Assembly (NCBI GenBank): GCA_021824175.1 | Contig: JAKALP010000016.1 | Coordinates: 62,001-126,000, forward strand | Direction: 5' to 3' | Length of the DNA stretch: 64,000 nt | From: Deltaproteobacteria bacterium | GTDB lineage: Bacteria > Desulfobacterota > Desulfobacteria > Desulfobacterales > Desulfosarcinaceae | Part shown: positions 15,359 to 46,982 of the stretch, piece by piece | How the letters are laid out: each line of letters starts with the position of its first letter | Numbering within the stretch: position 1 is the first letter of the stretch | Position numbers and translations under genes: made by a program | Notes under the pieces: generated by a model | What the model saw: the letters and a program-made list of their open reading frames with translations, nothing else | The model's database searches: none | What the model was told of the DNA's origin: nothing

Positions 15359-16441
15359 CTACACCCGCTCGGCCACCATATCCCCCACCTGGCTGGTGCT
15401 GTAGCCCATCTTGCCGGCGGACAGGCTTGTGATCTTGGTGGCGGTGATTTCCCGCACCGCGTTTTCAATGGCTTTGGCCGCGGCCAGTTCGCCCAGGGTC
15501 TCCAGCAGCATGGCGCCGGCGCAAATGGCGGCCAGGGGATTGATGATATTCTGGCCGGTGTATTTGGGGGCCGAGCCGCCGATGGGTTCGAACATGCTCA
15601 CCCCTTCGGGATTGATGTTGCCCCCGGCCGCAATGCCCATGCCGCCCTGGGTTTCGGCACCAAGGTCGGTGATGATGTCGCCGAACATGTTGGAGGTGAC
15701 CAGCACATCGAACCACTCCGGGCTCTTGACCATGTACATGCAGGTGGCGTCCACATGGTAGTATTCGCGCTTGATATCCGGATAGTCTTTAGCGCCCACT
15801 TCGTGGAAAACGCGCTCCCACAAATCAAAGACATAGGTCAGCACATTGGTCTTGCCCACCAGGGCCAGGGTGTTGACATCGGCCTTGCCCTGGGCCTTTT
15901 TGCCATACTTGCGGGCATATTCAAAGGCGTAGCGCAGGCAGCGCTCCACCTGGTGGCGATTGTAGACTTCGCTTTGCACCGCCACTTCGTGGGGCGTGCC
16001 TTTCATGGAGACCCCGCCCGTGCCGGTGTAGATGCCGCCGGTATTTTCGCGCACCACGCAGTAGTTGATCTGCTCCGGGCCCTTGTTCTTCAAGGGCGTA
16101 TCCACTCCTGGAAAGAGGCGCACCGGCCGCAGATTGATGTACTGATCCAGCTCAAAGCGCAGCCGCAGCAAGATCCCCTTTTCGAGAATGCCCGGCTTGA
16201 CCCCAGGATGGCCAATGGCCCCTAAATAGATGGCGTCAAACTTCCGCAAATCATCGGCGGCGCTGTCCGGCAGAATCTCGCCCGTGCGCAGATAGCGCTC
16301 CCCACCGAAATCAAAATTGGTCATCTCCAATTTGAAGCCGAACTTGGTGGCCGCGGCCTTCAGGGACTTGCGTCCCTCGTTCACCACTTCCGGCCCCGTG
16401 CCGTCGCCTGGAATCACTGCAATTTTATACGTCTTGCCCAT
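15359..16441 (-). CDS. Isopropylmalate/isocitrate dehydrogenase family protein (LeuB-like)
   Basis: Cytoplasmic NAD(P)-dependent beta-decarboxylating dehydrogenase, 360 residues. Family motifs are IPGDGTGPEVV, a substrate loop LRLRFELDQYINLRPV, VVRENTGGIYTG, and the metal/cofactor region NMFGDIITDLGA with GSAPKYTG. It may be 3-isopropylmalate dehydrogenase for leucine or a related tartrate/D-malate or isocitrate enzyme. No leuACD genes are nearby, so context does not decide. The ATG at 16441 has GGGAG seven bases upstream and is preferred over a GTG at 16447. Confidence 0.88.
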   Translation of the reverse strand: MGKTYKIAVIPGDGTGPEVVNEGRKSLKAAATKFGFKLEMTNFDFGGERYLRTGEILPDSAADDLRKFDAIYLGAIGHPGVKPGILEKGILLRLRFELDQYINLRPVRLFPGVDTPLKNKGPEQINYCVVRENTGGIYTGTGGVSMKGTPHEVAVQSEVYNRHQVERCLRYAFEYARKYGKKAQGKADVNTLALVGKTNVLTYVFDLWERVFHEVGAKDYPDIKREYYHVDATCMYMVKSPEWFDVLVTSNMFGDIITDLGAETQGGMGIAAGGNINPEGVSMFEPIGGSAPKYTGQNIINPLAAICAGAMLLETLGELAAAKAIENAVREITATKITSLSAGKMGYSTSQVGDMVAERV

Positions 16442-16605
16442 ATCCACACTCCCTGTTTCAACCGGTCACGCCTTGGCGCTGATCCTGAAATCGCGATAAA
16501 TCGCGTTTATATATGCAATTCGGCGATATGGGTCAAGCCTGCTAATGGCGAAAGTCAGGGTGATTGCATGTAAAATTCAAATTATCCAAAACTTAAATGA
16601 ATATC

Positions 16606-16675
16606 GAATATCGAACAAGGAACAGTAAAATATCGAAAGAAAACTTTGTAATTCGAAATTTATTGTTCGATATTC
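16606..16675. repeat. GAATATC inverted heptad repeat
   Basis: Tandem GAATATC-type heptads run from about 16598. Their reverse complement follows, giving perfect 13-base arms at 16606-16618 and 16663-16675. The repeat lies in the leader region of the LeuB-like gene. Confidence 0.6.
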
Positions 16676-16717
16676 ATCTTTTTTGGGGATGGGGCATGGT
16701 GTTTTTGGCGGCTCAAT

Positions 16718-16736: not shown

Positions 16737-16811
16737 CTGTGGCGAAACTTATTTTTGTGGCTTTTACCCCCTAAAGTTTGCGCTTTGTAGTTTACAATGG
16801 GGGGAAATGAA

Positions 16812-16838
16812 AAGCCCGGTGAAACTTTCACCGGGCTT
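16812..16838 (-). terminator. Terminator-like hairpin after the six-cysteine small gene
   Basis: Arms AAGCCCGGTGAAA and TTTCACCGGGCTT form a nearly loopless 13-base stem, with TTTTCATTT following on the minus strand. It lies about 78 bases after the stop of the 48-residue gene and is its likely terminator. Confidence 0.6.
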
Positions 16839-16915
16839 CGGTAATTTTTAGCTGAATGAAGATGGGCTTGAATGCAAAGTAAGTCGTTATGCTCTGGAAG
16901 ACGCCGAGGGTGTTG

Positions 16916-17062
16916 TTATCGGCTCGACTCCAGCCGGCAGCTTTCCCGGCACAGTCTCAAATCCTCCACGCAGCCCGAAGGCATGCGGCGGGTACAGCTT
17001 GCAAATTGATCTTCGCAACGGCTCATGCACTGACTTTTATCTTGAATGGCGGTATCGCTCAT
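16916..17062 (-). CDS. Small six-cysteine protein, 48 residues (new call)
   Basis: 48-residue ORF starting at ATG 17062, with AGGAGG four to five bases upstream and an in-frame stop directly before the ribosome site, so the start is well fixed. Cysteines lie at 12, 16, 23, 31, 38 and 42, giving spacings of 3, 6, 7, 6 and 3. This is a mirror-symmetric twin CX3C pattern like a disulfide-locked or metal-binding helical hairpin. No signal peptide is visible. A GC-rich hairpin lies upstream and a terminator-like hairpin downstream. I recognise no family. Possible roles are metal binding, redox or a zinc-staple partner protein. Confidence 0.65.
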   Translation of the reverse strand: MSDTAIQDKSQCMSRCEDQFASCTRRMPSGCVEDLRLCRESCRLESSR

Positions 17063-17097
17063 GGGGCCTCCTCATGGGTTGTGCTTATGTTTTATTT

Positions 17098-17128: not shown

Positions 17129-17237
17129 ATGGGGCAACCATAACCACGAACCGCATGCGCGCAACCCATGAAAAATTTTGCCCCACGCGAAAATTGGAAA
17201 AATAAGGGGCTTCGGTCAGACGCGATTTAGACGGTGC

Positions 17238-19334
17238 CTATTTCTGTTTATACTCCAGAGTGATGGTCACGGTGCGGTTCAACGCCCGGCCTTCGGGCCG
17301 ATCGTTGTCATATAGCGGCGCATTGGGGCCGACCCCTTTGACTTCCAGGCGTTGGGCCATGTCGGCAGCCACGGCCAGAATGGTTTGTTTTACCGCCTGG
17401 GCGCGACGGTCGGAGAGGGCCAGATTGTATGCTTCTTTGCCGATGGTATCCGTGTGACCCACGATGGTGACCTTGGCATCGGGCACTTGGTGCATGCGCT
17501 TGATGATGCGCTCCACAATGGCCTGATTGCGGCCTTTGATGGCGGCGCTGTCATAGTCAAACAGAATCAAGGCATACTGCTCGACGACTTTATACCCCTG
17601 GATCTGGGTGCTCTGTTCAGTGCGCCGGATGTAGTGGATGGGCAAGAGGATCGGCTCCGCACTGCTTAAGCTATTGCCCTCGGTGTCGCTGGCCTGCAGC
17701 TTCATCTGGAGGCTGCCGCAGTTGGAAAGCTCTTCGATCAGAACCGCATCCAAGGGAAGGGTCCATTCAGCCGGCGGCGCACCATGGCCTTTAAATGAAT
17801 GAAAGGGATGGTTCTCTTTCATCCCGCAGAACAGATCAACCTGCCAGTCGGCCAAGCCGACTTCGGATTCAATGTGGGGCGCAATGCGCAATTGGTTCAA
17901 GTCGCTGACCTTCTGAACATAGGCGCTGTCCACGGTGTCAAGGATATCGGGATAGTCGCTGTAAAGCTCAACCCGCTGGTTTTCGGCCTGGCCTTCGGGG
18001 ATGCGGTTGGTGCTGGCGGCTTCAGGTAGATTGCGCGGTTCAACCAGCATGCGCTCCGGCGCAATGCCCCAGACGTAACGCAGATAGGCCCGCACGGCTT
18101 CGGCCCGGCCGCGGGACAGGTCGGTACGACCCTTTTCCTTGCCCACATTGGAATTGCATCCCACAATGCGCAGGTTGGCCTCATGATTGTTTTGAAGCCG
18201 CAGGCCGATAATATTGAGCACGTGGCGATATTTATCCAAGGCCCCCGTGAGATTTTTTTCATTGAAGTTTTTGGCTTCTTCCGCATTGGCAAAGAGGACA
18301 TAGCGATTGGTCAATTCGCTTTGACCGGTCTCAAAGTAAATCTGGTTGAGCAACGGCGAGCTGTCGATGGTGGTGACCTCTTCAATGGTCAGCTTTTGGG
18401 CCTCAAAGGCCACCGTGCCCTTGGGTGGTTCCAGGAAGCGGTAGGAAATTAGGTAGCGGTGCAGTAAAATGGAGGAAAACGCCTGAAATACCGGCAGCAG
18501 CTGAGCGGCCGATGCGGCTTTCCAGGACCGGCCATGGTGCTGGGAGGAAAGCTGGCTCAAGAAGGGATCCATGTCCGGGCCCGGCATGTAATCCACGGCA
18601 TAGACCGCGAGGTTGGAAATGGTGCCGGCGAGATTTTCGACCTCTTTGGCGGTTATATCGGAATTGATATCTTCACCATCGGAAAAGATCACCAGGAACT
18701 TATTGTCCTTGGCTGGCATCCGGCCGGCCATATCCAGCCCCAGGCGGATGGCATCGAAAAGATAGGTGCCTTCAGTCAATCCTTCGTTCAAACCGTGACG
18801 CAAGAAAGCGCGCAATTGATCCGAATCTTTGGTTTGAATGCCTCTGGCATGCAAGGCGCGCCCGTCGACCGTGGTAGTATTTTGATCATCGAAGACAATG
18901 GCGGAAACAGTGTCAATGGGGCGCAAGGTGCTGTAAAATGCTTTCAAGGCGTCGGAAAGTGGTCCGACCGCTTCACGGAATTTCATGGATTTGGAGTTGT
19001 CCACCACCATGACGATGTTCAGGCCCACCTCCTTGCTGGTGGCCAGGGGTTCCACGGTGAGGACCTTGGCGGTTTTAGGTCCCTGGTGGATAGAGAAGTT
19101 TTCAGGGGTCAATCCACGAATGGGGTTTTCATCCGCATCGGTGGCCGATACCAACAATCGGCCGTCTTCCATGGTTTGAAAGGTGAGTTTGGCGACGTTT
19201 TGAGGGCCTTGTACCTGCAAGGGCGGGGGCGTTGGCGATGTCGCGGGTGTCGGGGTTGTATCGGTCTCTGCCTGGGCACAAAGCGGCAGATTGAAAAACA
19301 AGAGAATGATCAAAGGGATGAAACGTTTTTTCAT
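17238..19334 (-). CDS. VWA domain protein with two OmpA-like peptidoglycan-binding domains
   Basis: 698-residue exported envelope protein. A signal peptide (about 1-23, ending AQA) is followed by a Thr/Pro-rich linker and a VWA domain (about 110-300) with MIDAS motif DNSKS. Two OmpA-like domains follow: a divergent one at about 340-480 (IVGCNSNVG, SRGRAEAV) and a typical C-terminal one at about 565-695 (LFDYDSAAI, IVGHTDTIG, LSDRRAQAV). It should sit in the periplasm bound to peptidoglycan while the VWA part holds a partner through a metal ion. AAGGAG seven bases before ATG 19334 fixes the start; the open frame to 19427 is not used. Confidence 0.88.
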   Translation of the reverse strand: MKKRFIPLIILLFFNLPLCAQAETDTTPTPATSPTPPPLQVQGPQNVAKLTFQTMEDGRLLVSATDADENPIRGLTPENFSIHQGPKTAKVLTVEPLATSKEVGLNIVMVVDNSKSMKFREAVGPLSDALKAFYSTLRPIDTVSAIVFDDQNTTTVDGRALHARGIQTKDSDQLRAFLRHGLNEGLTEGTYLFDAIRLGLDMAGRMPAKDNKFLVIFSDGEDINSDITAKEVENLAGTISNLAVYAVDYMPGPDMDPFLSQLSSQHHGRSWKAASAAQLLPVFQAFSSILLHRYLISYRFLEPPKGTVAFEAQKLTIEEVTTIDSSPLLNQIYFETGQSELTNRYVLFANAEEAKNFNEKNLTGALDKYRHVLNIIGLRLQNNHEANLRIVGCNSNVGKEKGRTDLSRGRAEAVRAYLRYVWGIAPERMLVEPRNLPEAASTNRIPEGQAENQRVELYSDYPDILDTVDSAYVQKVSDLNQLRIAPHIESEVGLADWQVDLFCGMKENHPFHSFKGHGAPPAEWTLPLDAVLIEELSNCGSLQMKLQASDTEGNSLSSAEPILLPIHYIRRTEQSTQIQGYKVVEQYALILFDYDSAAIKGRNQAIVERIIKRMHQVPDAKVTIVGHTDTIGKEAYNLALSDRRAQAVKQTILAVAADMAQRLEVKGVGPNAPLYDNDRPEGRALNRTVTITLEYKQK

Positions 19335-19558
19335 AATTGCACTCCTTAACAATCGGTACAATTTCAATTTCGAATCAAAGAGGGCGTTGGTTATCCAGAG
19401 CCTGATGATTAGAAGGGGTGCCTCCACGGGAGGTTCACGGGTTGATCCTGAATTGGAGCCCTGGCTCCAGGCTGTTAAAGCAACGCGCGTACCATATACA
19501 AAATGGTTTTGATAAACAAATGGTTTTGTAAAAAGCCGGCCTGGATTTGTTTCGCGGT

Positions 19559-44830: not shown

Positions 44831-44877
44831 TTGACCCCGGTGTCATCTTGACTATAAGAGTCAAGAAATTGTTGACT
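44831..44877 (+). promoter_or_regulatory. Promoter and three-half-site operator of the rrf2-hmc locus
   Basis: A -35 TTGACC (44831-44836) and a -10 TATAAG (44853-44858) are 16 bases apart. Half-sites TTGACT (44848-44853), AGTCAA (44859-44864) and TTGACT (44872-44877) form two overlapping dyads, one lying on the -10 box. The first dyad is perfect over seven bases (CTTGACT / AGTCAAG). This is well placed for self-repression by the Rrf2 protein encoded just downstream. Confidence 0.65.
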
Positions 44878-44898
44878 AAGAACCCGGGTCGATACGCC

Positions 44899-45333
44899 AT
44901 GCTGACACCGACCAAAAAAGGCCAATATGCCTTACGGGCCGTCTACGAGCTGGCCAAACGTGATGGTCAGGGGCCGACTAAAATTTCGGCCATCGCAGAT
45001 GCCCAGGCGATCCCCCACCGATTTCTAGAAGTAATTTTGCACCAGCTCAAAGGCAGCGGCCTGGTCGTCTCCAAACGGGGATTTTACGGCGGCTATGTGC
45101 TGGCCAAACCCCCCCAACAAATTTCCGTCGGAGATGTGCTCAAATTTGTCCAAAAAGAGCTCGCCATCGCCCAGTGCGTGGCCTGTGTTTCCCAAGAAGA
45201 GTGCCCATTTATCAGTAACTGCGCCTTTTCAACCCTGTGGCGCAAGGTCAAGACCGCTGCGTTTCAAATTTATGATGATACTACTTTGCAGGATTTGATC
45301 GATCAACAAAAGGCCGCAATGGGCGCTAAATAA
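44899..45333 (+). CDS. Rrf2 family transcriptional regulator
   Basis: 144-residue winged-helix regulator of the Rrf2/IscR family. The HTH is at about 25-50 (KISAIADAQAIPHRFLEVIL), the wing is SKRGFYGGYVLAKPP, and a Cys cluster CVAC, EEC, SNC (about 100-115) could hold an iron-sulfur cluster for redox sensing. In Desulfovibrio vulgaris the rrf1 and rrf2 genes lie downstream of hmc; here the regulator is upstream, 29 bases before hmcA. The start at ATG 44899 is preferred because the earlier TTG lies inside the promoter. Confidence 0.9.
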   Translation: MLTPTKKGQYALRAVYELAKRDGQGPTKISAIADAQAIPHRFLEVILHQLKGSGLVVSKRGFYGGYVLAKPPQQISVGDVLKFVQKELAIAQCVACVSQEECPFISNCAFSTLWRKVKTAAFQIYDDTTLQDLIDQQKAAMGAK

Positions 45334-45362
45334 ACTTCCGGCGCCGGGGAGCAGGAATAGAG

Positions 45363-46982
45363 ATGCATCGTTTTGTGATCAGGAGCAGGGGAGTAAACCG
45401 CGCGCTCTGCGCTACCTTGGGGGCACTGTGCATCCTGGCAGTGGTCGGTCCTTGGTCGGCTGTTGCCGCAATTGAGCCGGCAGATGCCGTGGCGCCCGGT
45501 CGGGCGGATATCGTTATCATTGACGGCCTCAAATCCTTCGGCCCGCTGGAGAGAGCGCCGGTAGTATTTCTTCACGACCGACACACCGAAGCCATGGCCA
45601 AGCAGGGTAAAGATTGTCTGGCCTGCCATTTGATGGACAAGGAACGCTTGTCTCTGAAGTTCCAGCGCCTGGAAGAGCTGAACAAGCAGAGCGTGATGGA
45701 CCTTTACCACACCCAATGTGTGGCCTGTCATAAGGAGTATGGTCAACGAGCGGAGAAAACGGGGCCCATCACCTGCGGCGAATGTCATGCGGAGAAGAAA
45801 ACGGTTGCCAGCATTCGCCAACCATTGGGCCTGGATCGTTCGCTGCACTATCGCCACGCCAAGGCCAATGAAGATAAATGCGAGCGCTGCCATCACGAAT
45901 ATAATGCCCAGACCAAAACCCTTTATTATGCCAAGGGGCGGGAAGGGGCCTGCCTTTACTGCCATAAAGAAAAGACGGAGGAAAATCGTATCTCCAACCG
46001 GTTGGCCTCCCACATGGCTTGTATTGGGTGCCATCGCACTGTTTTGAGTCAAAAAAAGAAGGCCGGCCCCATTATGTGCGGCGGTTGCCACGATCCCAGA
46101 CAACAGGCCTTGATCGCCAAAGTGGAAGATCCGCCACGCCTGATGCGCAATCAGCCCGATGCGGTTTTGGTCAAAGTGTTTCGCGCTGATGAAATTACGA
46201 CCGCGCCACAAGAGCGGCTATCCGCCGTCCCCTTTGACCACAAATCCCACGAGGGCTATGCCAACCAGTGCCGCACCTGCCACCATGCGGCTTTAAGCTC
46301 CTGTGCCCATTGTCACACCATTCAGGGGCACAAGGACGGGCAGATGGTCAAGCTGGCCCAGGCCATGCACCAGCGGGATGCCATCATGAGTTGCGTGGGC
46401 TGCCACCGGCGCAAGCAGGAACAACCGGAGTGTTATGGCTGTCACGGCAGTATTCCCGCACAGCGGGTGTGGAGTACGGAAGCGGCCTGTCGAGTTTGCC
46501 ATGTCTCCTTGGCCAAACCCTTGGCCGCGGCCGCCGATGAAGAACAAACCAAGGCCCTGGCAGCCGAAATGATCGCGGCGCGCCGACAATCGCCCGCGCC
46601 GGTGGCCGTGGAAGATATTCCGGAGACGGTTTCGATCAACCATCTCATGAATCAATTCGAAGCAGTGAAAATGCCACACCGCAAAATCTTATTGGCTCTG
46701 GCCGAGAATGCCCGGGAAGACCGTCTGGCCTCCGCGTTCCACTCCCAATCCACCACACTGTGCCAGGGGTGTCATCACAATAGCCCGTCCAGCCTCAAGC
46801 CACCCCAGTGCGGTGCTTGTCACGGTCGCACCTCGGACGCATTGAATCTGACACGCCCTGGCTTGATGGCGGCCTTTCACCAGCAGTGCCTGGAATGCCA
46901 CCAGCGGATGGGGATAGAAAAACCGGCCCCCCGGGATTGCGCGGCTTGTCATGCCAAGCGGGGCTCCCAAGGTTTGAAGTGA
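45363..46982 (+). CDS. hmcA: Sixteen-haem high-molecular-weight cytochrome c
   Basis: 539-residue periplasmic multihaem cytochrome. The signal peptide (about 1-36, ending VAA) is followed by 16 CXXCH haem motifs by my count, the number known for HmcA of Desulfovibrio, whose length (about 545) also fits. Many additional His residues could serve as distal ligands. It would accept electrons from periplasmic hydrogenase or formate dehydrogenase through type I cytochrome c3 and hand them to the HmcB-F membrane complex. Confidence 0.95.

Follow-up and report, generated by a model that had tools for sequence, protein, structure and literature searches.

CHCH and small Tim proteins of the eukaryotic intermembrane space carry twin CX9C and twin CX3C motifs, respectively, with four core cysteines and no third pair. 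Among the bacterial copper-storage proteins (Csp), two Csp3 proteins contain 18 and 19 cysteines. In Csp3, eight Cu(I) sites are each built on a CXXXC motif within a single helix, and the others on cysteines of adjacent helices; in the available part of their paper, the authors find it remarkable that disulfide formation is not facile (PMC5171941). For the plant alpha-hairpinins, the available part of a survey states that it left out sequences lacking a signal peptide (PMC11591084).

The protein described here has 48 residues and six cysteines. It is encoded in a 64,000-nucleotide stretch of bacterial DNA, the whole of which is hereafter called the window.

A conserved small gene with mirror-spaced cysteines

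The open reading frame lies on the minus strand (Table 1); the plus strand does not encode this protein here. The translated protein is MSDTAIQDKSQCMSRCEDQFASCTRRMPSGCVEDLRLCRESCRLESSR, and its cysteines are located at residues 12, 16, 23, 31, 38 and 42, giving a spacing of 3-6-7-6-3. The initial annotation had described a 48-residue frame with this mirror spacing; recomputation gave the same positions and spacing, and the strand is now fixed as minus. Six open reading frames of 30-100 residues with six cysteines were found in the window, and this gene is the one that is mirror-spaced. The exact cysteine pattern occurs once across the six frames of the window and in none of 30 third-order Markov simulations of it, while a single mirror-spaced six-cysteine frame of 30-100 residues was found in all 30 simulations together.

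Across nine orthologues of the genus, the window gene included, pN/pS was 0.33 in the core (residues 12-42) and 0.68 in the tails (whole-gene value in Table 1). The numbers of variable columns at the three codon positions were 31, 26 and 42, and synonymous switching between TGC and TGT was observed at four of the six cysteine codons. This substitution pattern shows purifying selection at the protein level.

It is worth considering that the frame might be spurious or non-coding, that is, part of a small RNA, a leader or an antisense transcript. The frame is short and has no database family, and a sub-threshold Rfam match to Trp_leader adjoins it. Against this stand the protein-level selection, the switching at the cysteine codons and the preservation of the frame in 16 genomes across different gene neighbourhoods. 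We regard the non-coding reading as highly improbable, and the substitution pattern refutes it. The 48-residue frame is a genuine gene. The initial annotation had taken it for one, and had asked whether relatives lack the frame or the cysteines and whether the substitutions look non-coding; relatives retain both the frame and the cysteines, and the substitutions are those of coding DNA.

Signals and neighbourhood of the gene

Table 1. Features of the small gene and its flanks, in window coordinates.
Feature	Position	Strand	Remark
CDS, six-cysteine 48-residue protein	16916..17062	-	stop codon 16916-16918; in 10/11 genus genomes; pN/pS 0.43
Shine-Dalgarno AGGAGG	17067-17072	-	read in sequence
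Hairpin, possible terminator, 12 pairs, near-perfect inverted repeat	16812-16838	-	3' of stop codon; terminator scan: + strand only
Promoter-like TTGCGC-N16-TATGGT	17137..17164	-	motif shared upstream of genus members; putative

The AGGAGG site and the in-frame stop just upstream, both reported earlier, were found again, the stop being a TGA at 17072-17074, 12 nt upstream of the ATG. GGAG occurs within 16 nt before the ATG in all 16 members of the family. The downstream hairpin reported earlier was likewise found; read on the gene's own strand, it is followed by TTCATTTC, and the terminator scan has no minus-strand entry there. In the genus relatives, too, the stop codon is followed by a hairpin rich in G+C, in most of them with a run of T, as judged by eye. 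The Trp_leader match (16806-16912, minus strand) lies over the hairpin and, at 22.3 bits, falls short of the gathering score of 41; it is most likely due to chance.

The motif TTGCNN-N16-TANNNT was present within 130 nt upstream in nine of ten genus members (mean 0.03, maximum 2 in 2000 mononucleotide shuffles) and TTGNNN-N16-TANNNT in all ten (mean 0.17, maximum 3), these frequencies being counted on the very sequences from which the motif was derived. A generic sigma-70 scan of the window gave no minus-strand promoter at 17137-17164, and a minus-strand terminator-like hairpin at 17171-17144, found by scan, overlaps the promoter-like element. Separately, the A+T-rich intergenic region at 16595-16680 contains the words ATATCGAA and TTCGATATTC repeated on both strands, and is possibly a dispersed intergenic repeat.

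In the window, the gene is flanked on the same strand by a VWA-OmpA protein gene upstream (17238-19427) and by a gene of the isocitrate/isopropylmalate dehydrogenase family downstream (15359-16447). The neighbours in relatives include MazG and MsrA/MsrB domains (genomes G002 and G003; MazG also in G010), a sigma-54 activator with a chemotaxis receptor (G006 and G009), an M28 peptidase (G005) and a LuxR-type regulator (G004). Pfam scans of chosen neighbours showed no constant neighbour or partner gene among the loci compared, and no copper gene. Given these differing neighbours and its own promoter-like element, the small gene looks like a stand-alone transcription unit; its context offers no functional clue.

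At six of nine relative loci (L037, L038, L039, L041, L043 and L044), a homologue of the window's class III cytochrome gene lies some 3-7 kb away from the small gene, and four of these six also contain the Rrf2 regulator homologue. In the window, the class III cytochrome gene (45363-46982; region 44848-46982) is 28 kb from the small gene. The two genes perhaps share an old neighbourhood that was later rearranged.

Distribution of the family

When the genomes of the bacterial family were searched with the protein, eight of the ten other genomes of the genus proved to carry a close relative (E 2e-14 or better). With a 14-row profile, ten of eleven genus genomes matched, the copy in G001 being diverged; together with G011 of the same family, this makes 11 of 30 family genomes. 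Genome G007 (91% complete, 600 contigs) gave no match to this profile. The loci L031-L033 are not independent of G006, G008 and G009.

Profile searches at the order and class levels each matched 25 of 389 genomes among the best 17-18 candidates per genome. Of these matches, 15 were kept and 10 dropped at the order level, and 16 were kept and nine dropped at the class level, the dropped ones having no stop-free six-cysteine pattern. Two of the dropped matches, in G306 and G321, are antiframe to a longer reading frame that is itself conserved. Outside the genus but within the order, intact six-cysteine members were found in six genomes (G011, G058, G061, G101, G117 and G154). The families of three of these carry the gene patchily, in 1 of 12, 2 of 7 and 1 of 3 genomes with the known carriers counted. 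A phylum-wide draw gave matches in 7 of 395 genomes at E <= 0.01 among the best 17-18 candidates per genome, namely the own genome and six weak partial matches, which were dropped as none had the six-cysteine pattern. In a second phylum-wide draw, the own genome was the one match among 99 at E <= 0.001, the candidates of one genome being scored in part. The negatives of the order, class and 395-genome searches are soft, because at most the best 17-18 candidates per genome were scored. So far, the six-cysteine family has been seen in one order only.

Exactly six cysteines are kept in all 16 intact members, which are 43-48 residues long; the central loop has seven residues in 14 members and nine in two. 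Two further stretches resemble the second half of the gene: a remnant in G139 (L094 6294-6380), with its first half out of frame, and a frame-broken or stop-interrupted stretch in G248 (L080, about 1509). Some lineages may be in the course of losing the gene.

Mobile elements were also searched. No plasmid matched at E <= 10 by tblastn; seven phage records matched a relative's protein, all at E 2-8, none of which is meaningful; and a scan of IMG/VR viral contigs, sensitive to close relatives only, gave none. Thus, nothing in these searches points to a mobile or phage gene. Matches in metagenome-assembled genomes titled Kuenenia and Akkermansia (L034 and L035) cover residues 17-47 only and have no six-cysteine pattern, and were attributed to chance.

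The window protein matched no curated family. With 14 members as queries, Pfam returned only three spurious weak families (best E 0.043) and no match to DUF326 at E <= 1, NCBIfam returned none at E <= 1, and PHROGs none at E <= 0.1. Titles and abstract openings in the literature contained no description of such a family. The earlier view that the family is an unknown one is borne out in this respect, and the gene represents a conserved small-protein family without an entry in the three libraries searched with the 14 members. A RiPP precursor was considered as the protein is short and cysteine-rich, and was set aside because the neighbours compared have no modifying enzyme in common. SCIFF-type peptides bear a loose resemblance to the protein.

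Predicted structure

AlphaFold2, run on the window protein and three relatives, placed helices at residues 3-26 and 32-47 (mean pLDDT 80, pTM 0.51; pLDDT 86-90 in three middle blocks). The 48-residue protein is thus predicted to be a helical hairpin, as the initial annotation had supposed it might be. From the helix geometry and the mirror spacing, the three cysteines of each helix (steps of +4 and +7) would lie on one stripe, and their mirror order would pair 12 with 42, 16 with 38 and 23 with 31 across the helices. Hydrophobic residues recur between the first and last cysteines at position 20 (F or Y, 16/16), position 35 (L, F, I, Y or W, 16/16) and position 32 (V, I or L in 15 members, A in one). 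These positions would make a small core for an unaided fold, and with so few hydrophobic positions besides the cysteines, the protein should depend on metal or disulfides to stay folded.

Foldseek gave no match at E <= 0.001. In the VIA-align list, ATP-synthase c-ring hairpins came first (Z 5.8) and the rows were mostly generic hairpins. Lower in the list were the cystine-dense peptide 6oke (Z 4.5), the cytochrome bc1 chain 5nmi_U (Z 4.2), Csp3 (Z 4.0, 31% identity over 45 residues), Csp1 (Z 3.8) and the Mic60-Mic19 fusion 7pv0 (Z 3.0). These Z values may reflect merely a common arrangement, and a family absent from this list is not thereby excluded.

One way to read the predicted hairpin is as a mini-adaptor with a Zn(Cys)4 site, an Fe-S cluster or a redox switch. 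The twin CX3C motifs would together form a single site of four cysteines where the hairpin is open, the pair 23/31 would close the turn, and the protein would act as a regulator or bind a partner rather than serve as a store. The twin CX3C is kept in all 16 intact members, and the strongly conserved, partly charged stretches of the genus (CED-F, PSGCVE and CRESC) exceed the needs of a bare metal sink. The pair 23/31, however, is equally invariant and is left unexplained by a single four-cysteine site, and the loci compared share no partner gene. We consider this adaptor reading rather unlikely.

Profile comparison with copper-storage proteins

The first profile search of the PDB gave 3lmf as its top match, at a non-significant E of 0.49; the best stretch aligns four cysteines, and a third stretch aligns all six at a negligible 1.1 bits. 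With a revised profile (A4), a vicilin (E 0.54) came just ahead of 3lmf (E 0.55).

The weak matches of these searches bear on a second alternative, in which the pairs 12-42, 16-38 and 23-31 are stacked disulfides that staple the hairpin into a binding or antimicrobial scaffold, as in alpha-hairpinins or CHCH and small Tim proteins. Three cross-helix staples would require just such a mirror spacing. The weak PDB profile matches include vicilin alpha-hairpinins (E 0.64 and up; 0.54 and up with the revised profile), and 6oke, 7pv0 and 5nmi_U, which we take to be the disulfide-linked hinge subunit of cytochrome bc1, are among the weak fold matches. On the other hand, hydropathy revealed no export-like hydrophobic stretch in any of the 16 members (top 15-residue mean Kyte-Doolittle 0.71), so that the protein should stay in the reducing cytosol. 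The vicilin alignments spanning both helices swap the order, with our helix 2 on their first, and are not colinear. According to the available part of the survey, moreover, the six-cysteine alpha-hairpinin motif is CX3CX3C-X4-20-CX3CX3C and not one built on CX3CX6C (PMC11591084). The stapled scaffold therefore seems unlikely to us.

The likeness to Csp was analyzed further by profiles. A tblastn search with the 3lmf fragment returned 22 plasmid records, each of which is annotated as 'four-helix bundle copper-binding protein'. Six of these plasmid proteins were aligned as the Csp profile, which matches solved Csp3 and cytosolic copper-storage proteins. In hhalign, the small family aligned with the six Csp over 35 columns; a single insertion was needed and each of the six cysteines was matched (E 0.0011, probability 20.6%; with the A1 alignment, E 0.00095 and 22.2%). 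When the cysteine columns were fixed and the others permuted, none of 150 permutations reached the observed score (maximum 18.2 versus 21.1), and when all columns were permuted, one of 150 exceeded it.

Profiles were also ranked on 4448 distinct open reading frames of the window and the fetched loci, of which 351 have six or more cysteines. Family members took ranks 1-5 with the profile of the Csp C-terminal hairpin, at weak E-values of 0.036-0.8, and the first three ranks with that of the N-terminal half (E 0.0036-0.17). With the full-length profile, one member came first (E 0.0081) and two unrelated frames second and third. These facts suggest that the likeness to Csp somewhat exceeds what the cysteines alone would give, and they are suggestive, though not proof, of homology between the small family and Csp. 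The Csp template was picked post hoc, after it had topped a non-significant PDB list, and the significance is modest; common descent with Csp is therefore not established.

Csp genes, recognized by DUF326 over its cut-off, were found in two of the 30 genomes of the bacterial family, both of which also carry the small gene, so that no replacement pattern is seen. The Csp genes of these two genomes, G004 and G002 (L105 and L106; 1486-1881, minus strand), encode 131 residues with 16 cysteines. The own genome gave no DUF326 match over the cut-off.

Possible function

The reading that we tentatively prefer, at a probability a little short of one half, is that of a cytosolic mini-bundle that would bind Cu(I) or another soft metal through thiolates, with a buffer or storage role. 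The initial annotation had offered a disulfide-locked helical hairpin or a metal clamp as possibilities. Metal binding appears likelier than disulfide formation, because no export-like stretch is present, the cytosol is that of an anaerobe, and the cysteine register resembles that of Csp with agreeing neighbouring residues. The genus presumably consists of sulfate-reducing anaerobes.

In the proposed mechanism, the stand-alone gene would yield a cytosolic two-helix hairpin with its six cysteines as a stripe facing the opposite helix. The reducing cytosol would keep the thiols reduced and allow a soft metal to be bound, most likely Cu(I), with Zn(II) or others possible. The ligands would be provided by the two CX3C motifs and the three cross-helix pairs, after the CXXXC and cross-helix pairs of Csp. 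Two hairpins would probably dimerise, as we infer purely by reasoning, into a twelve-cysteine four-helix bundle, a 'half-Csp' that could store or buffer metal.

A bolder version would be that this one-hairpin 'half-Csp' dimerises, holds Cu(I) or another thiophilic metal in a sulfidic anaerobic cytosol, and represents either the pre-duplication unit of Csp or a reduced derivative of it; as a whole, this appears improbable. If the link to Csp were true, the protein would exemplify a stage with one hairpin in the evolution of the copper-storage proteins of bacteria, and also a metal-buffer protein where sulfide might be expected to serve. The small protein could in any case be of use as a minimal natural scaffold for probing metal binding by cysteine-lined helical bundles.

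Comparison with known systems

CHCH and small Tim proteins share with the small protein an antiparallel helix pair joined by facing cysteines. They differ in their twin motifs, whereas the small protein has three cysteines per predicted helix, spaced 3 and 6, and neither group was among the PDB profile matches of either search. Plant alpha-hairpinins are likewise short helix-loop-helix proteins with a CX3C in each helix. Their arrangement, as given in the available part of the survey, is CX3C-X4-20-CX3C with four cysteines or CX3CX3C...CX3CX3C with six, as against CX3CX6C...CX6CX3C in the small protein (PMC11591084).

The likeness to Csp may extend to the register of the cysteines. The C-terminal hairpin of the six Csp holds C-X3-C-X6-C-X8-C-X6-C-X3-C as a subset of its cysteines, and there is agreement at some of the residues next to them (CV; R preceding the fifth cysteine). 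Csp is all-helical, as the small protein is predicted to be, and Csp3, according to the available part of the paper, has no signal peptide (PMC5171941). On the other hand, Csp has about 110-131 residues and two hairpins, whereas the small protein has 43-48 residues and one. The stretch that aligns contains two cysteines more in Csp than in the small protein, which at position 35 has a large hydrophobic residue opposite a cysteine of Csp. The DUF326 model (PF03860) does not recognise the small family, and a Csp is a four-helix chain with many core cysteines, in contrast to six cysteines and two predicted helices here. By the tests run, the small protein is not a member of that family; as judged from these alignments, the closest known thing to it is the C-terminal hairpin of Csp/DUF326 (PDB 3lmf, 5fig and 6zif).
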